A DNA stretch of 58,645 nt. Source: Planctomycetota bacterium. Its GTDB lineage: Bacteria; Planctomycetota; Planctomycetia; Pirellulales; Pirellulaceae. Position numbers and translations under genes: made by a program. Below, in pieces: positions 47,091-57,174 of the stretch. Under the pieces are notes generated by a model. It made no database searches. It was not told where the DNA came from and saw only the letters and a list, made by a program, of their open reading frames with translations. The DNA lies in NCBI GenBank assembly GCA_014381825.1, contig JACNKX010000144.1, positions 1 to 58,645 of the forward strand, in the 5' to 3' direction. Positions within the stretch are counted from its first letter, which is position 1; every line of letters begins with the position of its first letter.

Positions 47091-47122
47091 CGTAATGAAT
47101 TCCTGATTTTTTGAGTACGAAC

Positions 47123-48112
47123 GTGGCAGAGTGCTTGATCAGCATCGGCTCGAATATCGGTGACCGTTCGTATGTCATCGAGTCGGCGCTTGCAGAACTT
47201 CGCGAACACCCGGCGCTCCAGCTCCACTCGACCAGCAATTATCACATCACTCAACCGGTTGGGGGGCCTCCAGGGCAAAGTGAATTTGTCAATGCAGCAG
47301 CCCTTGTGGAAACTTCGCTTCCGCCGACGGAAGTTTTGAGTTTGTTGCACGCAGTGGAATTGCGCGCGGGGCGGAAGAGAGGTGTCCGATGGGGGGCACG
47401 CTCGTTGGATCTCGACTTGCTTTTGTATGGCGACGTTGTGATCGACGATGAGCAGATTATTTTGCCACATCCACGCCTTGCGTTCCGGCGGTTTGTGCTC
47501 GCCCCGGCTGCAGAGGTCGCGCCAAAAATGTTGCACCCCGTGTTAGGTCGGAGCATCGAACAGTTGCTACAGCACCTTGAGCGAGCACCGAATTATGTCG
47601 CCATTACCGGATTGCCGGGAGTCGGGAAGGCCGATCTCGTGAGCGCCTTGTCGAAGCGAGTCAGTGCAAAGCCAATTCTCGGCGAGCAAGGAGGTGACTC
47701 GTGTAGTCCCGATGACGCTAGTCCATCTCAAGCGCTAGAGCTAGAATTACTAAACGCTCGATGCGCTCTGCTTCGGAATATATCGTTCAGTTCAGCGTCC
47801 TATTCAATAAGTGACTTCTGGTTAGGTCAATCTCTGGCGTACGCGAAAGAGTTGCTGCCAATTGGTTACCGCCAATTCGAGGAAGCCTGGGCGGCATGCC
47901 ATTCGCAAGTTATATCACCGAAGTTGGTCGTCCTGATCGAAACGTCCATAAGTGAAGAAACTCGCGGCGAACGGGCGGGTAGATTACTCGCCGTTCAACA
48001 TAACCTCCAGCAGCAGCTCGTTGAAACCGACGGAACGCCCACACTGCGATTGAACGCGACAGCCCCCTCCTGGAACGAAGAAGAAGTTGCGGCAGCGATC
48101 CTCGCAATGTAG
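47123..48112 (+). CDS. folK: FolK (HPPK) fused to a P-loop kinase-like domain
   Basis: Residues about 1-155 are HPPK, which transfers pyrophosphate from ATP to 6-hydroxymethyl-dihydropterin in folate synthesis. Motifs: LISIGSNIGDR, NYHITQPVGGPPGQSEFVNAA, RWGARSLDLDLLLYGD and LPHPRLAFRRFVLAP. A second domain of about 170 residues begins at the Walker A-like GLPGVGKAD (about 163) and has DFWLGQSLAYAK, LVVLIETS and ERAGRLLAV, like a degenerate deoxynucleoside-kinase-type NTPase. Typical HPPK has only about 160 residues. GTG 47123 is chosen; a TTG at 47111 lies in the same frame. No ATG fits. It is followed by panC after 14 bases. Confidence 0.88.
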   Translation: MAECLISIGSNIGDRSYVIESALAELREHPALQLHSTSNYHITQPVGGPPGQSEFVNAAALVETSLPPTEVLSLLHAVELRAGRKRGVRWGARSLDLDLLLYGDVVIDDEQIILPHPRLAFRRFVLAPAAEVAPKMLHPVLGRSIEQLLQHLERAPNYVAITGLPGVGKADLVSALSKRVSAKPILGEQGGDSCSPDDASPSQALELELLNARCALLRNISFSSASYSISDFWLGQSLAYAKELLPIGYRQFEEAWAACHSQVISPKLVVLIETSISEETRGERAGRLLAVQHNLQQQLVETDGTPTLRLNATAPSWNEEEVAAAILAM

Positions 48113-48126
48113 CAACGATTTACAAT

Positions 48127-48990
48127 ATGCCTGAAGAAATAACTAAGATTGCGAGTACAGAACGTGAGGCTCGAAGCTTTATTCGAGCAGCGAGAGAGGG
48201 CCGTAAACGCATTGGCCTTGTCCCGACAATGGGGGCACTGCACGAAGGGCATTTAAGTTTGGTACGAGCCGCTCGGCGAACTTGCGAATCGGTTGCAGTG
48301 ACGATTTTTGTGAATCCAGCACAGTTCGGCCAGACCGAGGACCTTAGCAAGTACCCGCGCACGATCGACGAAGATTTGGAAGCACTGCGGGATCTTGGTG
48401 TCGACTTGATATTCCTGCCGAGTCAGGACGAGCTTTATCCCAATGGTTTCTCGACTTACGTGCTGCCACCAGCGGTTGCCGATCCGTTCGAGGGACAGTT
48501 TCGCCCCGAACACTTTCGTGGCGTGGCGACGATCGTGTTGAAGTTGCTCAACTTGCTACCGGCGGACGTCGCCTTTTTTGGGCAAAAAGATTTCCAACAG
48601 TTCCAAGTCATTCGCCAAATGGTGAAAGACTTGAACGTACCGGTCGAAATTCAAGCGTGCCCGATCGTCCGTGAGCCGGATGGGCTTGCCATGAGTTCCA
48701 GAAATCGATACCTAACTCCTGACGAGCGCGAGCGAGCGGTTGCATTATCCGATGCGTTAGCTGAGGCAAAGCGATGCTTTGACGATGGGGCGACGTCCAG
48801 CTCGACTCTCGCTGAATATATGAGCGAAATTCTTCGCAAAGCAAAGATCACGAAGATTGATTATGCCGAAGTTGCCGATGCGAATACGCTCCAACGAATT
48901 GACCAGATCGATCGGCCCGCGGTTGCCTTAATCGCGGCGTACGTTGGACGGACACGGTTGATCGACAACACTTTACTTGCTGCCGAATAA
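48127..48990 (+). CDS. panC: Pantothenate synthetase
   Basis: The 287-residue protein is PanC, which joins pantoate and beta-alanine using ATP to make pantothenate for coenzyme A. It shows the HIGH-like motif PTMGALHEGHLSLVRAAR, SVAVTIFVNPAQFG, DFQQFQVIRQMVKDLN and the KMSKS-like MSSRNRYL. Length and order are normal. It follows folK by 14 bases and precedes lgt by 16, so the three genes look like one operon. No clear ribosome binding site is seen before its ATG. Confidence 0.96.
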   Translation: MPEEITKIASTEREARSFIRAAREGRKRIGLVPTMGALHEGHLSLVRAARRTCESVAVTIFVNPAQFGQTEDLSKYPRTIDEDLEALRDLGVDLIFLPSQDELYPNGFSTYVLPPAVADPFEGQFRPEHFRGVATIVLKLLNLLPADVAFFGQKDFQQFQVIRQMVKDLNVPVEIQACPIVREPDGLAMSSRNRYLTPDERERAVALSDALAEAKRCFDDGATSSSTLAEYMSEILRKAKITKIDYAEVADANTLQRIDQIDRPAVALIAAYVGRTRLIDNTLLAAE

Positions 48991-49006
48991 GGCCGAGATC
49001 TTTCGG

Positions 49007-50305
49007 ATGCGCCAGACTCTCTTATACATTCCGCACGAGATGTTCGGCGTTCCTGTTTTCGGGATGGGATGGGCTCTTGGGATTTGGCTGGCAATTAGCG
49101 TCGTTTTTCTATTCGTCTTGACCCGACGCCACGGATGGACATCGGAAGTCGCGGGCTACCTGCCGCTGATGGCGGTCTTCTCGATCGCTTTATACGCATT
49201 GCTCCCAATGCTTGAAGTTCGCCCGCCGGGGTTGGAGCCGCTGGGTGTGCCAATTCGGGGCTACGGGATGTTCGTCGTAGCCGGGATCATGGCTGGGATG
49301 TCGCTCAGCATTCACCGAGCGAAACAGATTCGGCTGGAGCCCGAGTTGATTTATTCGCTTGCGTTTTGGATGTTTGTCATCGCTATCGCCGGGGCGCGGT
49401 TGTTCTACGTGATTCAAAAGTGGGACGAGTTTGAGCGGGAAACGCTGATTGCAACCGCGGGAGCGATTTTGAAGTTTACCGAAGGCGGACTCGTCGTCTA
49501 CGGCTCCATCATCGGAGGCGTTATCGGACTTTATTTTTTCTCGCGCCGGCATCAGATCCGAATGCTGGAGCTTGGCGACGTGATCGCCCCCGGTATGATA
49601 ATTGGTTCCGCATTGGGTCGCATCGGCTGTTTAATGAACGGATGCTGTTACGGCGGAGTATGCGAGAGCGGGCCACTCGCGATAACCTTTCCGAAGTACG
49701 CAGCCGTCGAGTTGCGTCAATACAGTTCGCCCTACGCACACCAGCTGGCGATCGGAGAGCTACATGGATTTCGCGTTGCGGAAGACGAGAGGCAGAAGGT
49801 CGTTGTCGTTGACGTCGAGTCGGGCACTGCTGCCGAAGCGGCGGGGTTGCGTGCGGGAACTAAGATCCATCGTTTGAACGGTGTCGAAGTAAAGAGTCTC
49901 ACGTCCGTGCAGAAGATTCTCCTCGCGGGTCCGCCAAGAATTACCATCAACGAAGACAATGTTGCATGGACAATTGATGCGCTGCCACCAAGAAGCCTTC
50001 CCGTTCATCCAACTCAGATATACAGCTCGATTAATGCCGCTCTCATTTGCCTTGTTCTCTGGTTTGCTTATCCATTTCGGCGTCGGCACGGCGATATACT
50101 GCTGTTACTTTTCGGCCTCTATTCCGTGACTCGTTTCTTGCTCGAAGCGATTCGGACCGACGAAGCAGGTCAGTTGGGGACAGCCTTCACGATTTCGCAA
50201 ATCGTAAGTCTATGCGTATTTACGCTGTGCGTCGTCTGTTGGCTGTCTCTGTTACGGCAACCAAGGATCGGTGGAGAGTCAATGCCTGCGGGCGAGTCCG
50301 TATAG
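49007..50305 (+). CDS. lgt: Prolipoprotein diacylglyceryl transferase with PDZ-like insertion
   Basis: Lgt moves diacylglycerol from phosphatidylglycerol to the lipobox cysteine of exported lipoproteins in the inner membrane. The 432-residue protein has seven or so membrane helices, RGYGMFVVAGIMAG, the signature GRIGCLMNGCCYGG (about residue 204) and the end motif HPTQIYSSINA (about 334). Between them, about residues 250-325, is a PDZ-like insertion (VVVVDVESGTAAEAAGLRAGTKIHRLNGVEVKS). Typical Lgt is 260-300 residues and lacks it. ATG 49007 is chosen; the TTG at 48977 would overlap panC. Confidence 0.92.
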   Translation: MRQTLLYIPHEMFGVPVFGMGWALGIWLAISVVFLFVLTRRHGWTSEVAGYLPLMAVFSIALYALLPMLEVRPPGLEPLGVPIRGYGMFVVAGIMAGMSLSIHRAKQIRLEPELIYSLAFWMFVIAIAGARLFYVIQKWDEFERETLIATAGAILKFTEGGLVVYGSIIGGVIGLYFFSRRHQIRMLELGDVIAPGMIIGSALGRIGCLMNGCCYGGVCESGPLAITFPKYAAVELRQYSSPYAHQLAIGELHGFRVAEDERQKVVVVDVESGTAAEAAGLRAGTKIHRLNGVEVKSLTSVQKILLAGPPRITINEDNVAWTIDALPPRSLPVHPTQIYSSINAALICLVLWFAYPFRRRHGDILLLLFGLYSVTRFLLEAIRTDEAGQLGTAFTISQIVSLCVFTLCVVCWLSLLRQPRIGGESMPAGESV

Positions 50306-50345: not shown

Positions 50346-50753
50346 TCATTTGCCGCGCAAATAGCCGGCACTGGACTGGAAGTATTTCGTCCTTCGTGAT
50401 GCAGCAACATCGTCGGCCTCTTCTTGCTGCATGCGAAGGTCGTGGAGATTCGCATTGCAGAATCGGCAGCCCACTTCTTCGATATGGAAACGGCAGTAAG
50501 CCGACTGCTCTTGATCAAGTGCTTCGAGCAGATAACTCCCGAGTTGTTCGCGATTTGGGCAACTGAGCCGATGCCGACGCCAGATTTCTCCGATCGTATG
50601 AATGCCCGCATCCCGGCGGCCGTTGATCACCGCGAGCCGTTCGCCCAATTCGGGATCGGCTCTCAACTCCGACTCGATGGTCGCCATCTCGTCAGGCGAG
50701 AGGGCTTCGTCGAGGTACGCTTCTAATTCTGACTCGGTGAATTCTTGCGACAT
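50346..50753 (-). CDS. Zinc-finger-like anti-sigma candidate
   Basis: The 135-residue protein follows an ECF sigma gene by 20 bases, the usual place for an anti-sigma factor. Its first half is an acidic helical segment (LEAYLDEALSPDEMATIESELRADP). The second half contains HIEEVGCRFCNANLHDL, a possible His-x5-Cys-x2-Cys metal site, and CPNREQLGSYLLEALDQEQ. Unlike many anti-sigma factors it has no membrane helix, so it would be cytosolic. The role is inferred from position and motif. Confidence 0.6.
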   Translation of the reverse strand: MSQEFTESELEAYLDEALSPDEMATIESELRADPELGERLAVINGRRDAGIHTIGEIWRRHRLSCPNREQLGSYLLEALDQEQSAYCRFHIEEVGCRFCNANLHDLRMQQEEADDVAASRRTKYFQSSAGYLRGK

Positions 50754-50773
50754 ACGCGTATGCGGCTCACAGT

Positions 50774-51412
50774 TTAATCGTCGTAGAGTTCTGGGAATAT
50801 GTCTTCAGACAGCCCTTGCCGCCCCACCAACGTTCGAGTTCTGGTGAGGAAATCAAACTTGAAGTTTGCGACTTGCTGCTCAGAAATGCCAAGGTGCTCG
50901 GCAACCTTTTTGTTTGCCCAACCACGGACAAATAACAATTCGTTGCAGCGTAATTTCGTCCAATCGCCGCGGTCTTTCCAGCGGTCAAGTTGTTCACGAA
51001 GTGCCTCGACGAGCGCCTTTTCTTCCAAGTCCTTTTGTTCGCCACTTCTAACAATGCTGCTTGCCGCGCGAGCGGGCGACGCGAGCTGCCACTCGCCACC
51101 TGAATCGCCGCCTGCCGACAGCGGTAAGGCTGGACGTCGCCCCTCGCGTCGCATGTGATCTGTCAACTTGTAGGCGCAGATCGAGAACAGATAGCTTTCC
51201 AGGGGGCGCCGACCGTCGAAGTTCGGTAAGCTGCGGAGGAATCCGATGAAGGCTTCTTGCACAATGTCTTCGCTGGCCGCGCGGCGCCCAATACGACTTT
51301 CGACAAATGCTAACAAACGCCCCTCGTAACGTGAAATTAAATCACCCCACGCGTCGTCATCCTTGTTGCGGATTCGCTCGACAAGTATTTGATCCGTTTC
51401 CGAAGAAGCCAT
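50774..51412 (-). CDS. ECF RNA polymerase sigma factor linked to the kinase cluster
   Basis: The 212-residue protein has a clear sigma region 2 (RYEGRLLAFVESRIGRRAASEDIVQEAFIGFLRSLPNFDGRRPLESYLFSICAYKLTDHMRR) and a region 4 (LLFVRGWANKKVAEHLGISEQQVANFKFDFLTR). An insert of Ala/Gly/Ser lies between them (about 95-125). Sigma factors of this kind beside Ser/Thr kinases are known in planctomycetes; the kinase may phosphorylate or otherwise control them. It lies 95 bases after the membrane protein gene and 20 bases before the anti-sigma-like gene. Confidence 0.9.
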   Translation of the reverse strand: MASSETDQILVERIRNKDDDAWGDLISRYEGRLLAFVESRIGRRAASEDIVQEAFIGFLRSLPNFDGRRPLESYLFSICAYKLTDHMRREGRRPALPLSAGGDSGGEWQLASPARAASSIVRSGEQKDLEEKALVEALREQLDRWKDRGDWTKLRCNELLFVRGWANKKVAEHLGISEQQVANFKFDFLTRTRTLVGRQGLSEDIFPELYDD

Positions 51413-51469
51413 ACGCTAAAACGCCGGAGGGTTGCGGTAGCTTGGGTGCAGCAGGATTCACGGTTTAAG

Positions 51470-51492
51470 GAATTCTTGCGAATCCCGCTACG
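51470..51492 (+). repeat. Short dispersed repeat, copy 2
   Basis: GAATTCTTGCGAATCC-C-GCTACG. It differs at one base from the copy at 25955-25977. It lies between the membrane protein gene and the ECF sigma gene, outside coding sequence. Confidence 0.55.
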
Positions 51493-51507
51493 TCCGTGAT
51501 GCACTGC

Positions 51508-52449
51508 CTACATCCACGGAATCCAATTCGCGCAGACCACACCGGCAGCGATAACAGCCAGTATCGCCGCAGCCGCTCCGAACTGCAAGCGCCCCGTGTA
51601 ATACCCACGCGTCGCGGTGTCGAGCTTCAGGTAACTGAACATCGTCCCCAGCAGGAGTAAGACGGCTCCCGCACCAAGCCCCGTCTGGAACAATCGCGAC
51701 GTCGCACGAACTTTGCTCCATCGTTCGTCGAGTGCATTCTGGAGGTTCTTATCGATCTTCACCAACGCGTGTGACTGATTCATAACACCGTAATCAAACT
51801 CGACCTGTTCATCGAATCGCTGGTTGGCGATTTCAAATTGTTTGTTGTCCAACCGTAAAGTGAACGTTCGCGTATCACCGCGTTGGCTCTCATCGATCGA
51901 ATAGCCCGACAGAGTTGCAGCCAGTTCCGATCCGAGATAATCCTTTACGAAGCCATCGACGTTGGCTTTTACTTCGTCGCGCAGAGACTGTTGTGCAGTC
52001 CGTTTGCGGACTTGTAAACCGGAGTCTACCGAGATCTGGTAGCAATCTTCAGTGGTTAAGGCTTCGGTCTCGACCCAATCGGGGCGCGGGAGGGTAAGGT
52101 AGCGAAAGCTCGGTGTCGGCTCTATGGTTAGCTCACGTACCTCGGCTGTGGCCTCGACCGAAGGGGTCTCGTCGTTCGCAACGGATGTTTTTGGGATGAG
52201 TTCGTTGTTGGGAACATCTGTTACTTCGATTTCTGTAACCGCTTGTTCGTTCGCCGGTTGCTCTTCGTCGGCATAGGTCACACTGAGGTACGCATCGGAG
52301 TAGGAATCGCTTACTAGTGCAACTGCACGTCCTCCAAGGATGACGCTAAGCACGCCCATAGCGACGAGTATCGCAGGTGGCTTCCGTTCCATATTGGAGG
52401 CCCAAAGCGCGAGAACAGCAAGAATGACGATCACCAATAGCACGAGCAT
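51508..52449 (-). CDS. Membrane protein with large extracytoplasmic domain, signalling cluster
   Basis: The 313-residue protein starts at ATG 52449 with AGGAG 6 bases upstream, 9 bases after the kinase stop. It has two N-terminal helices (VLLVIVILAVLALWA; PAILVAMGVLSVILGG), a hydrophilic domain of about 190 residues (residues 55-245) and two C-terminal helices (LGAGAVLLLLGTMFSYL; AAAAILAVIAAGVVCAN). The domain has no recognised family. It may sense or anchor for the kinase, but this is inference from the operon. Confidence 0.72.
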   Translation of the reverse strand: MLVLLVIVILAVLALWASNMERKPPAILVAMGVLSVILGGRAVALVSDSYSDAYLSVTYADEEQPANEQAVTEIEVTDVPNNELIPKTSVANDETPSVEATAEVRELTIEPTPSFRYLTLPRPDWVETEALTTEDCYQISVDSGLQVRKRTAQQSLRDEVKANVDGFVKDYLGSELAATLSGYSIDESQRGDTRTFTLRLDNKQFEIANQRFDEQVEFDYGVMNQSHALVKIDKNLQNALDERWSKVRATSRLFQTGLGAGAVLLLLGTMFSYLKLDTATRGYYTGRLQFGAAAAILAVIAAGVVCANWIPWM

Positions 52450-52458
52450 AGCGTTCTC

Positions 52459-54564
52459 CTACGCGACCTCAGCAACTTGTTCCCGGATTTCCGCTCGCTC
52501 CGAGGGACGAACCCATGGCGCGGCGAGTTGAACGGCGATTGATGTGGATGCGGCGAACATAAAGCCCCACGGCTGTGGAAAGGCCCAAAACACGTGAATC
52601 AGCCACGCCCAGAAGATACAGCCTGCGGTTGCCCACAGGCTGACACGGCTCGTACGTAACGGGTCGGTTTGCAGCCACCACTTTGCGATTCCGAAGATCC
52701 CGCCGAAGTAAATCAGGAACGCGGGCAGCGTCAACGAACCATCCGAGGAGCTCCAATTCGCAGGTAGCGTGACTGCGGGCAGGGTTTGGACTACAAGTTC
52801 GTCAGTTACTTGCACGCCAAGAAACTGGCTGGTACCGAACGCGACAATGCCAGTGACAAGCCCGGCCATCAGCAACGCGAACCGCCGCCGAAGCGGTTCG
52901 CCTTCGTCCGATTCCCAGAACTTCGACATCGCTAACATCACCCACGCACCAACGATGCTCGTCAGCGAGAACCAGGCGTATAGCGTCCACGTAAAGACGT
53001 CAGCTAGCGCGTCACCTCGCATCAGAAGTGTCATCACAAAGCAAAGAATTAGGCTTGCCAGCGCGGAGGTTATTAGCGATCCGAACAATTCCGTCGCGCG
53101 TTCACCGTTATGTTTGCGCGCGATACGATCCCTAGCTTCACGCTTCCAGTGCTTTCGACGATAGCTCCGGCGATTCTTGGCCGTCGAGGTCGTAGACTGA
53201 TAGCTGGAAGCAGATGCTTCGGATTTCACGTGCGACGGCGTCTTTGGTTTGTCTAGAGCCAACACGATCGATCGTAGCCCGAAATAGACCAAGTACATCG
53301 CTCCGAGCAAAATCCCGGTCGGCACCAACCATTGGCCATTGAGAACTAAGAGACAGATTCCCCCAATCAGTAGCAGCACTTTTGCCGATGAATTCAGATG
53401 CGAGTGCTGCCACCAACGCGTCGTGTAGTGCCAGCCGTTACGCACGGCGCGCGCGATCGGTTCGGATTGTGGCTGAGCATTCGATGGCGCGAGGAAGGGC
53501 GACTCACTAACAACCTCTGCCGGAACTGTTTCCTGGAGTGGTCCAAGATAAATCCCGTCGCTTTCAAACTCATCACCTATGTACATGGCCGATCCGACGC
53601 GAGCGATTGATTCGGAATTGGCTGTTGCGATCACCGGTGGCTTGGGACTTGCGTCGGCGGCTTGCGGTTTGCCAAGCCCAAGAGCGATTTCGATTTCTGC
53701 AAGCATTTCCTCAACGGAGGAGGTACGCTGGGCGGGATCTTTTAGTAGCGCGCGATTTATGACGGAGCGGAAAGCCTCTGGAGCCGGCGAAAGATCAGGA
53801 TCCGCCGTCAGATGTTTCATGATGATTTCTTGACTGCTCTCGCCTTCAAAAGGCACCCGCCCCGTAAGCAACTCGAAGAGGATGATTCCGAGGGCATAGA
53901 CATCGATCTCTTTGCCATAGACGCCTTTGCCGATCTCCGGAGCCATGTAATGGAATGTTCCAACGCTTTCCGTTTGCCCGCTGCGACGGCTGCACGAGAT
54001 GTATTTTGATAAACCGTAATCACCGATCTTGACGATGTCGCCATCGATGAAAATGTTGCCAGGCTTGAGATCCCGATGGACGATGCCTTGGTCATGAAGG
54101 TATGCAACGCCACCAGCGATCCCTCGAAACCAATCGTAGACTTCCGATATCGGCATCCCGTTTGGATTGCGGTCGAGCGCGTCTTTTAGGCTGTCGCCCG
54201 CTACGTACTCCATCACCACCCAAGCTTGGCCTTCGTCGTCGTACTTGATATCGAACAGCGATACCAAGTTCGAATGCTTTAGGTTGATGCATTGCGTCAC
54301 GCCACGGACTTCGACGTCCATGTTTCGCTGGATGCGTTTGACGGCAACCTCTTTGCCCGCATCGCTGAGCGCGAAGTAGACCTCACCAAATCCGCCGACG
54401 CCGATACCTCGCTTGATGGTGTACCCATCAAGAGGTCGCGCTCCCGTCGCATAGGCGAACTTCATACTTCCGCCTTCCGGCTTTATAAGTTCTTTAGGCA
54501 TTGCGGCGTGCCGTTGTTCGAGTTGAGGGCCGCAGTCTTCTAAAGTAGCGGCTGAGTTGTGCAT
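52459..54564 (-). CDS. Membrane Ser/Thr protein kinase (Hanks type)
   Basis: The 701-residue protein has a cytosolic kinase domain (about residues 45-295) and then six or so hydrophobic segments from about 395 to 680. Motifs: glycine loop GIGVGGFGEV (53-62), ATP lysine K76 (EVAVKRIQRN), catalytic HRDLKPGN (H163, R164, D165), DYG in place of DFG (182-184), and GTFHYMAPEI. The start at 54564 has GGAGGA 8 bases upstream and overlaps the FHA gene by 25 bases. Such kinases phosphorylate Ser/Thr; the FHA protein and sigma factor in this cluster are likely partners. Confidence 0.92.
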   Translation of the reverse strand: MHNSAATLEDCGPQLEQRHAAMPKELIKPEGGSMKFAYATGARPLDGYTIKRGIGVGGFGEVYFALSDAGKEVAVKRIQRNMDVEVRGVTQCINLKHSNLVSLFDIKYDDEGQAWVVMEYVAGDSLKDALDRNPNGMPISEVYDWFRGIAGGVAYLHDQGIVHRDLKPGNIFIDGDIVKIGDYGLSKYISCSRRSGQTESVGTFHYMAPEIGKGVYGKEIDVYALGIILFELLTGRVPFEGESSQEIIMKHLTADPDLSPAPEAFRSVINRALLKDPAQRTSSVEEMLAEIEIALGLGKPQAADASPKPPVIATANSESIARVGSAMYIGDEFESDGIYLGPLQETVPAEVVSESPFLAPSNAQPQSEPIARAVRNGWHYTTRWWQHSHLNSSAKVLLLIGGICLLVLNGQWLVPTGILLGAMYLVYFGLRSIVLALDKPKTPSHVKSEASASSYQSTTSTAKNRRSYRRKHWKREARDRIARKHNGERATELFGSLITSALASLILCFVMTLLMRGDALADVFTWTLYAWFSLTSIVGAWVMLAMSKFWESDEGEPLRRRFALLMAGLVTGIVAFGTSQFLGVQVTDELVVQTLPAVTLPANWSSSDGSLTLPAFLIYFGGIFGIAKWWLQTDPLRTSRVSLWATAGCIFWAWLIHVFWAFPQPWGFMFAASTSIAVQLAAPWVRPSERAEIREQVAEVA

Positions 54565-55910
54565 CTGTCCAGTTCCTCCAGACTCATGGAGAAATCGCTT
54601 CCTGCAACGTGCGAATTGCTGTTCAAACGGCCACGTCCGTCACATAATTCGCCATCGATTTCAATTGCATCCATTGCGCGGCAATAAAGTTCGTCATCCT
54701 GGCGGTACAAAACAACATCTGCCTCCCATTCCGGACAAACGACGTGGTTTTGCCATCGCGGGCCCAGTACACACGATTCGGCCATCAGGAGGATGCTATC
54801 AGCATATGGCTGTGTCCGGTGACGGCTAACGACGTCTAAACGTGCCGACGCACTTAACGCGTGCGGTCGTCGGAAACGAAAGCGAACGCCCGAGCCAAGC
54901 TCAATCTCGTCGCCGTCGCTCAGAATCGCTCTCGTTTGAATCGCTTGGCCGTTCAACCGCAGAACGTGAAGTGGCTCGATCGTATAGCCCTCTCCGTCGC
55001 GGCGAATCTTTGCATGTCGACGCGAAATGTCCGCCAAGATTGGTATGTCGACTCGATTTCCAGGCGCTGCTTGTCCGAGCACAATTTCGCTCGCCAAGCT
55101 CACCAAGTATCCACCAACGCCATCGACCCACAACAAAAATCGGTCACCATTGACTTCGCCAAGGTCGTTTTCGGTGGACAACTTGCCAGGCACTCGACGC
55201 GAATCAACAAACTTGGCACCGACCTTTGCCCAAGCGGCCCTGCGAGCCTCTTTCGCCAATGTCGACTCGGGAGCAAGCTGCAGCAGCTGATCGGCGATTG
55301 GGACGACCTCCGACCAACTCTCTTCGGCCATGACGTGGTGAAGCTGTTCTGTCAAACTACCGAATTTCTCAGCTCGCGCGAGGCAGTCCGATCGACCCTG
55401 CTCTAACTCGGCAAAGTCGGGACGAAGCCGCATCGCGATTTCGAGTTGTGATTCGGCTTCTGCAAACTTGCCTCGCTTGACGAGGTTTGCCGCTGATTGA
55501 ATGCGTTGAGCCAGCTGTTTCAGCGGCATCAGTGACGCGATGGCAACTTTTCGCTTTTCGAGTGATTCGATTGCCGTCAGAGCAGCGGTCGCATCACCAG
55601 TTCGAAGCGCTGTACTGATGTCGTGAACAGCAGCTTCGACGAGCTTGTCCTTGGCTCGTTGTACTGCCGTCGTTTCGCCGCCCAAAGAGATTGCTTCTTC
55701 GATTTCTCCCCAAGCTGAATCAAAGTCGCTGCATTTTGAACATTGAATTGCTCGCTCGGCCTTCTTCGTCGTGACTTTTGCGGCCAATCTCCGCCCTGGA
55801 AGAAACTGCGTCAGACTTTCGTCAACCAGCATCTTACAAGCCTTTGCAAGATCGCCAGTCTTGTAAGCTTCTTCCGCTTCTCGAAGTTTTAGACGCCAGG
55901 TTTGAAACAT
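54540..55910 (-). CDS. FHA-domain protein with helical repeats
   Basis: The 456-residue protein starts at ATG 55910 (MFQTWRLKLREAEEAYKTG); the frame is open from 56048, but the earlier part lacks a ribosome binding site. Residues about 1-250 are helical and TPR-like (LAKACKMLVDESL, LVKRGKFAEAESQLEIAMRLRP). A forkhead-associated domain follows at about 265-370, with the phosphothreonine-binding core ILADISRRHAKI (about 297) and GQAIQTRAILSDGDEIELG. FHA domains bind phospho-Thr, so a substrate or docking role for the kinase is likely. The end overlaps the kinase start. Confidence 0.85.
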   Translation of the reverse strand: MFQTWRLKLREAEEAYKTGDLAKACKMLVDESLTQFLPGRRLAAKVTTKKAERAIQCSKCSDFDSAWGEIEEAISLGGETTAVQRAKDKLVEAAVHDISTALRTGDATAALTAIESLEKRKVAIASLMPLKQLAQRIQSAANLVKRGKFAEAESQLEIAMRLRPDFAELEQGRSDCLARAEKFGSLTEQLHHVMAEESWSEVVPIADQLLQLAPESTLAKEARRAAWAKVGAKFVDSRRVPGKLSTENDLGEVNGDRFLLWVDGVGGYLVSLASEIVLGQAAPGNRVDIPILADISRRHAKIRRDGEGYTIEPLHVLRLNGQAIQTRAILSDGDEIELGSGVRFRFRRPHALSASARLDVVSRHRTQPYADSILLMAESCVLGPRWQNHVVCPEWEADVVLYRQDDELYCRAMDAIEIDGELCDGRGRLNSNSHVAGSDFSMSLEELDRCTTQPLL

Positions 55911-55998
55911 CTCGATACACCGAAAGAAAGCGTGACGAATCCGAAAAGAGGGCCTGAGTGCAGGTGACTCAGACCCTCGCGAAATGATCCTGTCAGAT

Positions 55999-56799
55999 CT
56001 AACGAAGCGAGTCGACAAGAGACTCGATCTCGGGACGACCATTTCCAAAGTAGTCCGTCACTTCTTCCGTGATATCGCGGTCGATACCGGACTCGTCGAG
56101 TGGAATGCGATCGTAGTACTCGAGATCAGCGTTGACCAGTTTCTCTGCGACTTCGATACGAGTTCGCACTTGGTCGACCAGCTCCTTCGTCTGCGCTAGC
56201 TTGCTATCGTCAAAGTTGAAATCGCTAGTCGTTTGAGCGACCTCGACCATCTTCAAGCGCGCGTCAAGGTTCTCGACATCAACTTGCAGCTGACTCTTTG
56301 CGGCCAGCATGCCTTCTAGTTTGTCGCGAGCGGCGAGCATCATTCGTTGCTTGGCCGCCAATTGCTTCTTCTTGCTGACGATTGTTGCTTCCTGCGTCTT
56401 GAACTGGTCAAAGCGCCGAGTCAGATCCGTCTTCACTTGTGTCGCAGTATAGTTGCGATTCGCATACACAAACTGTTCCGACCCCGAATCCAAATCTTCC
56501 TTCAAGCGAATGATATCGCCTCGGTCTTTGGCCAAACGATCTTCTGCCTTCAGAACTTGTCGCTCCAACTTGGCGACTTCGACTTCGACCTCCGCGATCG
56601 CGTGCATGTTGCGTTCGATCTCGGGCTGTAGTCGTCGAATCTCTTCGCGAGCCCTCTTTAACTCGAACGTCACCGGAACGCTGTCCTCGAACGTCTGGTG
56701 AGCAATCCCAACCGCTGTCGAGACATGACTCCGACCGTACAGCAAGCCTGCTAAGAGCAGCACGCCGGCGGCCACAACTGCTGATTTCTTGACCATCAT
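55999..56799 (-). CDS. Single-helix coiled-coil membrane protein
   Basis: The 266-residue protein starts at ATG 56799 with GGAGG 5 bases upstream; the frame is open from 56853. It has one N-terminal membrane helix (SAVVAAGVLLLAGLLYG) and then a long coiled coil (about residues 45-205, heptads such as RRLQPEIERNMHAIAEVEVEVAKLERQVLKAEDRL). The rest is acidic (DLEYYDRIPLDESGIDRDITEEV). No known family. It is the first gene of the signalling cluster, 88 bases before the FHA gene. Confidence 0.78.
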   Translation of the reverse strand: MMVKKSAVVAAGVLLLAGLLYGRSHVSTAVGIAHQTFEDSVPVTFELKRAREEIRRLQPEIERNMHAIAEVEVEVAKLERQVLKAEDRLAKDRGDIIRLKEDLDSGSEQFVYANRNYTATQVKTDLTRRFDQFKTQEATIVSKKKQLAAKQRMMLAARDKLEGMLAAKSQLQVDVENLDARLKMVEVAQTTSDFNFDDSKLAQTKELVDQVRTRIEVAEKLVNADLEYYDRIPLDESGIDRDITEEVTDYFGNGRPEIESLVDSLR

Positions 56800-57174
56800 T
56801 CGATCCTCCAACTTCTGTGATGTATCTAACGCCGTGATTCGTAACTGTTCCAATACGAGGCTTGCCGCGACCCTGCGGTTCTCAACGGGGAATTCGGCAG
56901 GACATCGCCGTTATTTGGGAACGCTTGAAATATTTTCAAGTTTTTTCTGCTGTGGCCGAATTGCGTTCTGACGGAATTTGACACGACGTTGTCGGAAGTG
57001 AACGAAGTTGCATCAGCTGTTCAATGTTGCCCAATAGACTTGAACGATTGTGATCGTTGATCGGAAGCAAACCTAGTTGCTAAGACGATTTACGCCATTC
57101 GAGATGTCAACGATCCGCCGCGGCACGATGATTGCTACTACAGCTTGCATCAATCTCAACTTAGGAGCAGAGTC
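56800..57174. other. Gene-free region between coiled-coil gene and small protein gene
   Basis: It contains an orphan terminator-like hairpin at 56924-56946 (listed). Nothing else is recognised. The promoter for the minus-strand cluster is probably here. Confidence 0.4.
56924..56946 (+). terminator. Terminator-like hairpin without an upstream gene
   Basis: CTTGAAA-TAT-TTTCAAG forms a 7-bp stem with a 3-base loop, followed by six T (56941-56946). On the plus strand no gene precedes it, since the neighbours to the left are minus-strand genes. It may end an antisense RNA or be chance. Confidence 0.5.

Follow-up and report, generated by a model that had tools for sequence, protein, structure and literature searches.

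A contig of 58,645 nucleotides from a planctomycete of the family Pirellulaceae (JACNKX010000144.1, assembly GCA_014381825.1; this whole stretch is called "the window" below) carries on its minus strand a set of six genes that is near-universal in the family, and most of its genes also turn up together in other planctomycete classes, where the order is either kept or rearranged. The genes encode a coiled-coil protein (CC), a protein with an FHA domain (FHA), a Hanks-type Ser/Thr kinase (KIN), a membrane protein (MEM), an extracytoplasmic function (ECF) sigma factor (SIG) and a small soluble protein bearing zinc-ligand residues (ASF). In this report, we present evidence that ASF is probably the anti-sigma factor of SIG, and that a conserved, ECF-like promoter motif precedes CC. 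We propose that the set constitutes an autoregulated module leading from membrane to transcription, a reading that we advance tentatively and that, taken as a whole, we consider nearly as apt to be right as wrong.

The layout of the locus is simple. CC (positions 55999-56799, 266 residues) has a single membrane segment at its N-terminus (residues 2-20); FHA (54540-55910) is soluble, with a TPR-like, repeat-type N-terminal half and a degenerate FHA domain; KIN (52459-54564) is polytopic in the membrane in its C-terminal half; in MEM (51508-52449), a predicted alpha/beta domain is flanked by two membrane segments on the N-terminal and two on the C-terminal side; SIG (50774-51412) matches Pfam Sigma70_r2 at 50.9 bits; and ASF (50346-50753), the zinc-ligand anti-sigma candidate, has 135 residues. 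All are on the minus strand, and the intergenic distances from CC to ASF are 88, -25, 9, 95 and 20 bases. Membrane segments were taken from a simple hydropathy scan, and the start codons of relatives' genes were set by script. The six open reading frames lie where a first-pass annotation of this DNA had put them. The overlap that it reported between the end of FHA and the start of KIN is exactly 25 bases (54540-54564), and the strong ribosome binding site that it ascribed to KIN is present as GGAGGA, 9 bases before the ATG. The identical overlap occurs in related loci L040-L045 and L048, and likely reflects translational coupling.

Our sample of the window's family comprised 119 genomes, 87 of them of high quality. 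A search with the single MEM sequence gave a match in 60 of the 119, own genome counted. At the 59 non-self loci picked in this way (L040-L098), KIN is present in 59, FHA in 54, MEM in 54, CC in 50, SIG in 49 and ASF in 35, the presence of MEM being no evidence there; the prevailing order is CC-FHA-KIN-MEM-SIG-ASF. Chance clustering is ruled out by the four genes flanking the cluster in the window, which are present in just 4-12 of the same 59 loci. Conservation of the gene order in relatives was a check set beforehand; the order recurs, and its absence was not encountered. The first-pass annotation had regarded the six-part set as unusual, but for this family it is instead the norm. A larger group of loci, from uncultured public genomes labelled Pirellulaceae, Planctomycetaceae, Planctomycetota and similar, was picked by SIG matches (L111-L190, the best 80 of 196, with partly repeated genomes; the presence of SIG is no evidence there). 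The exact six-gene order is found in 19 of these 80, and SIG stands alone in the fetched stretch in 33.

Profile searches show how general the proteins are. SIG is matched in 113 of the 119 family genomes and in 86 of the 87 high-quality ones, with a single match in each; CC in 115 and 86, with two matches in 8 of the 115; and ASF in 110 and 85, with two matches in 4 of the 110 (the ASF match is weak in G084 and partial in G093). Both SIG and CC are present in 112 of the 119 genomes. They lie no more than 15 kb apart in 60, far apart on one contig in 12 and on separate contigs in 40, although some of these separations may be assembly breaks. In the split genomes that we examined, CC, FHA, KIN and MEM mostly stay together and SIG is by itself; CC is the relocated gene in G053 and G097, and in G105 it lies away from FHA-KIN-MEM-SIG. 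These genes have therefore been retained even in genomes in which the cluster broke up.

The set also extends beyond the family. In a phylum sample of 392 genomes, SIG has matches in 77 (threshold E 1e-25) and CC in 85 (E 1e-8). The two were compared at 77 SIG places and the 66 strongest CC places, leaving aside 19 genomes with CC rows of at most 99 bits, the second CC of G284 and of G038, and the CC of the window itself. They are found together in 61 genomes or copies, and are within 15 kb of each other in 44. In the 16 genomes that have a SIG match but no CC, the SIG match reaches only 93-119 bits and may represent other ECF sigmas. Distant loci L208-L230 were picked by SIG and/or CC matches, and the presence of the picked protein is no evidence there. 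In other classes, seven of them (L208-L210, L218, L222, L223 and L225) have the layout CC-FHA-KIN-MEM-SIG, with MEM not detected in L209. A second, rearranged layout with KIN-SIG-ASF-CC is seen in L211-L217, L219-L221, L224, L226 and L228; FHA is present in 8 of these 13 loci and MEM in L228 only, ASF is fused in L213, and CC is about 10 kb away in L211. L227, L229 and L230 hold partial sets.

Gene fusions join SIG to ASF-like domains and are strong evidence for an action of ASF on SIG. In 9 of 48 distant and separated SIG rows (L208, L209, L210, L213, L218, L222, L223, L225 and L250), SIG is extended in the same open frame by a C-terminal domain with homology to the C-terminal half of ASF, and the same fusion is present in 4 of 11 SIG rows from two-copy genomes (L304, L308, L319 and L320). 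Altogether, SIG is fused to an ASF-like zinc domain in 13 recovered loci. The sets at L250, L304, L308, L319 and L320 are additional ones, mostly the second in their genome. We aligned 60 sequences, namely 36 family ASF proteins including that of the window, 15 distant ASF proteins and 9 fused domains; W58, C65, H90, C96 and C99 are invariant in all 60. The conserved Cys/His zinc ligands characteristic of the zf-HC2/ZAS family are thus represented by C65, H90, C96 and C99. Their spacing in the window is H-x5-C-x2-C, whereas that of classical zf-HC2/ZAS proteins is H-x3-C-x2-C. All four ligands are in the second half of the window ASF, and the N-terminal half has lost its own; in the distant ASF of L228, by contrast, the N-terminal half clears the Pfam zf-HC2 cut-off (31.5 vs 22.2 bits). 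Because of the C-terminal fusions with SIG and this one distant orthologue over the zf-HC2 cut-off, we conclude that ASF is probably the anti-sigma factor of SIG, as the first-pass annotation had suggested for the gene at 50346-50753. The fusions support interaction only, and binding and inhibition of SIG are predictions.

Two residues near the end of ASF deserve attention. All 60 aligned sequences have Ser or Thr at position 128 (Ser 42, Thr 18), and 55 of them do so at position 127. Encoded at 50370-50375 on the minus strand, residues 127 and 128 are the best phosphosite candidates within the set. An AlphaFold2 model of ASF has a mean predicted local distance difference test score (pLDDT) of 78.2. 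A Foldseek search with this model gave no significant match in the PDB; of its 22 weak matches, five are sigma/anti-sigma complexes (RslA twice, the SigK complex, and ChrR twice), all with E above 4.

A second line of evidence comes from the DNA ahead of CC. There, 49 of 50 loci hold a bipartite motif, approximately C(C/A)AA(T/G)A, 14 bases and (G/C)CGAA(T), at 47-173 bases before the start codon. A position-weight matrix was trained on these 50 CC upstream regions. In the window it marks CAAATA-N14-CCGAAT at 56887-56922 (minus strand), 87 bases ahead of the first CC codon, which scores 18.5 and is the sole site above 9 in 58.6 kb. The motif is present in 16 of 17 held-out CC upstream regions of the same class (L192, L198, L199, L203, L205, L206, L232, L234, L236, L238, L240, L242 and L245-L249), only that of L240 failing, and in all seven held-out first CC copies of two-copy genomes. 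Ten genomes hold a pair of CC genes; there the motif precedes every window-type copy (10 of 10) and a single one of the other copies (1 of 10; p 1e-4). This comparison includes training loci L054 and L057 and a second copy in G063 that is a broken gene, and it omits G038 (second CC of 45.7 bits) and G067 (whose only CC is in a fused-type set and scores 3.6). Among control open reading frames of at least 200 residues outside the set, spurious frames included, 4 of 342 carry the motif.

The same motif appears inside the cluster where genes have drawn apart. Where FHA and KIN are at least 250 bases apart, it precedes KIN in 4 of 6 loci, whereas none of the 49 loci with less space between the two genes has it (Fisher p 4e-5). 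It precedes MEM at 5 of 8 gaps of at least 250 bases vs 2 of 52 others (p 2e-4); the 250-base limit was set after some of the sites had been viewed. Before ASF it was found in 1 of 36. The simplest reading is that SIG reads the CC promoter. Conserved order, co-retention of the genes and a shared promoter bear out the view that the set is one functional unit. Separately, a regulon search that returned 52 sites with sequence placed a CC-type motif 111 bases upstream of selA in the window's own genome (score 15.5; L259, C59:15070-15098, minus strand).

KIN matches Pfam Pkinase at 172.1 bits. That its C-terminal half is polytopic agrees with the first-pass annotation, which counted about six membrane segments, whereas we predict seven. 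Its catalytic motifs are well kept in the family (HRDLKxxN and DYG/DFG, each in 59 of 61) and are more variable in the distant set (HRDLKxxN in 27 and D[FY]G in 36 of 44), where HFD is common. Indeed, HFD replaces HRD in the kinases of the rearranged layout (L211, L213-L217, L219-L221, L224, L226 and L228), and these match the family model chiefly over the catalytic domain. In MEM, 207 residues separate the second and third of the four membrane segments. The AlphaFold2 model of this protein has a mean pLDDT of 78.6, with block means of 95-98 across residues 121-250, and has no match in the PDB with E below 0.001. CC gave just weak, coiled-coil-type matches under the cut-off in Pfam and NCBIfam.

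From these parts we can sketch how the module might work. KIN would respond to an envelope signal together with MEM and CC, which would serve as its sensors or partners on the membrane side, and FHA would be a non-canonical scaffold. ASF would keep SIG inactive through its zinc-binding domain, acting in trans in the window and in cis in the fused relatives. Phosphorylation of the conserved Ser/Thr in the ASF tail by KIN would set SIG free to bind RNA polymerase and fire the CC promoter, raising CC and the whole set. That SIG should be controlled by ASF is expected from its sigma2.2 motif: ASEDIVQE in the window, with the acidic residues retained. Of the near SIG rows, 50 of 51 fit the acidic pattern, as do 44 of 48 distant ones; SIG would therefore bind polymerase without being phosphorylated, and therefore control by ASF is to be expected. 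A more ambitious form of the proposal makes the system an envelope surveillance pathway that belongs to the core gene content of this family and recurs across the phylum. There, a membrane kinase with a polytopic sensor half would phosphorylate the tail of a zinc anti-sigma factor, present either as a protein of its own or as a domain joined to the sigma factor, and would thereby control a single-copy ECF sigma. A pseudo-FHA protein would be the scaffold, and the coiled-coil membrane protein would be the chief target linked to the promoter. We regard this form as possible, if on the unlikely side.

Several observations weigh against the module as we propose it. The first concerns the distance between ASF and SIG. 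Both are present in 109 of the 119 family genomes, and in only 43 of these are they within 3 kb of each other; they are 3-15 kb apart in 2, more than 15 kb apart on the same contig in 13 and on different contigs in 51. Further, no ASF match lies near SIG in L196-L207 (family f4). Then, the window ASF falls under the Pfam zf-HC2 (PF13490) cut-off (16.5 vs 22.2 bits), which is also missed by five of six distant ASF proteins and by all four fusions tested, and the conserved Ser/Thr of the ASF tail can be structural. As for the promoter, only 5 of 23 CC upstream regions beyond the class (L208-L230) reach a score of 6.2. The motif precedes SIG in 0 of 51 family loci, and where SIG lies apart from CC, KIN and MEM it is present in 1 of 18 (L235; it is absent from L191, L193-L197, L200-L202, L204, L207, L231, L237, L239, L241, L243 and L244). 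Before FHA it is found in 0 of 6 loci at large gaps and in 4 of 54, all at gaps under 250 bases, and there is no site at the split-off FHA-KIN-MEM-SIG stretch of G105 (L233). Finally, the exact pattern is not clearly enriched in the window's own genome (22 matches vs 16 for the reversed control); the corresponding figures are 15 and 11 in G068, 19 and 13 in G101, 32 and 10 in G018, and 25 and 6 in G080.

A rival arrangement would make ASF a zinc or redox sensor and the sole regulator of SIG, with KIN, FHA, MEM and CC as the output, an envelope machine whose level of expression SIG governs. The four invariant Cys/His ligands of ASF are consistent with such a sensor. So are the position of the promoter on CC rather than on SIG, even where CC stands alone (L245, L246 and L234), and the frequent occurrence of CC-FHA-KIN-MEM together without SIG. 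That no more than 43 of the 109 genomes have ASF near SIG lessens our confidence in the autoregulated module and in its surveillance form, and we give more weight to this alternative. Nevertheless, KIN and SIG stay near each other across several classes, and also in loci of the rearranged layout, a proximity beyond what an output gene would need, and a sensor acting alone leaves the conserved Ser/Thr of the ASF tail unexplained. On this evidence an ASF-only switch strikes us as a doubtful possibility, albeit one that merits serious attention.

We hold it to be improbable that KIN phosphorylates SIG directly, switching it on as in EcfP/PknT with ASF as a minor modulator. In its favor, the KIN and SIG genes lie close together at most of the loci fetched, the SIG linker contains serines within a strongly conserved RxASSIxRSGE stretch, and PMC8999054 predicts phosphorylation control for planctomycete ECF groups linked to kinases. 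However, the fusions join SIG to ASF and not to KIN, and the linker is unlike in distant SIG proteins, which weakens its serines as a phosphosite; they may instead cap a helix. SIG is, moreover, acidic where ECF43 sigmas have Ser/Thr, and direct activation of the sigma factor by the kinase in the known ECF43 manner is for this reason unlikely.

The FHA protein was originally assigned the task of reading phosphothreonine. Its FHA domain scores 35.0 bits in Pfam against a cut-off of 20.7, and a possible second FHA-like region is weak (hhalign E 5.6e-5, probability 38). In many relatives the repeat-type N-terminal half lies outside the open reading frame. The Arg of the GR turn is the residue with which FHA domains bind the phosphate of phosphothreonine; at this position, among 54 aligned sequences, Gln is found in 47 (the window included), Arg in 4, Gly in 2 and Leu in 1. 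Without the phosphate-binding Arg, a structural role for this protein is therefore likelier than phosphothreonine reading. A chain in which KIN phosphorylates a partner, FHA reads the phosphothreonine and the signal passes to SIG can draw on the recognizable domain and on the overlap of the FHA and KIN genes, but with the canonical Arg replaced by Gln in most sequences and the serine of the SRRH motif substituted in 15 of 55, we think it very improbable.

The nearest working parallel to the module that we favor is the control of SigH by RshA and PknB in mycobacteria, which likewise involves a zinc-ligand anti-sigma factor, an ECF sigma factor and a Ser/Thr kinase. The mycobacterial kinase is not known to belong to the sigma operon, whereas here KIN, FHA, MEM, CC, SIG and ASF form one conserved set; the H-x5-C-x2-C spacing and the conserved tail of ASF are further differences. 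Two mycobacterial sigma factors are released when PknB phosphorylates their zinc anti-sigma factor, according to the passage on them in PMC8999054. That review's section on sigma factors thought to be regulated by phosphorylation includes planctomycete examples of ECF59, ECF61, ECF62 and ECF217, and notes that, as a rule, a kinase rather than an anti-sigma factor is co-expressed with them. SIG resembles these groups and ECF43 in that its gene is near that of a Ser/Thr kinase, KIN being two genes upstream. It differs from the kinase-linked groups in having an anti-sigma candidate that is adjacent (20 bases), fused or co-retained, and from ECF43, in which Ser/Thr take the place of the acidic DAED motif of sigma2.2, in keeping the acidic residues there. 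A kinase-linked ECF sigma factor that additionally has a probable anti-sigma partner is the novel element here. We found no description of the six-gene set in the literature searched; that search was incomplete, and an earlier mention of the neighborhood is possible.

Other systems resemble parts of the set. In some ECF sigma factors, among them CorE (named in PMC8999054), the C-terminus is extended by a regulatory domain that senses metal. The 13 distant or paralogous SIG proteins with a C-terminal Cys/His domain recall these, but their domain is homologous to a separate ASF, which is a gene of its own in the window. The likeness of ASF to zf-HC2/ZAS proteins is plainest in L228, and the window ASF departs from them in having its ligands in the second half rather than the first. 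Rhodopirellula baltica has an FHA protein (RB1789) and an ECF sigma factor (RB1790), the latter raised only in high salinity according to PMC2754498; these genes could not be linked to the present locus. The sole sigma passage found in the main text of an essential-gene study of P. limnophila (PMC10632474) names the housekeeping sigma factor.

Two genes on the plus strand near the cluster were also noted for their domains. The product of the Lgt reading frame (48977-50305) has a PDZ match (30.6 bits, residues 261-316) inside the span of its LGT match (175.8 bits, residues 90-422). The product of the HPPK (FolK) reading frame (47111-48112) has an additional C-terminal half, which weakly matches the P-loop-type AAA_16 model (21.1 bits, under the cut-off).

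Planctomycetes have many kinases and ECF sigma factors whose wiring is little known. The set described here is near-universal in its family and is found in other classes as well; since both a promoter and a phosphosite can be predicted for it, it is directly testable. If our proposal is true, these bacteria would join anti-sigma control with control by a kinase, two modes of regulation that are treated as alternatives in the corresponding passage of PMC8999054.

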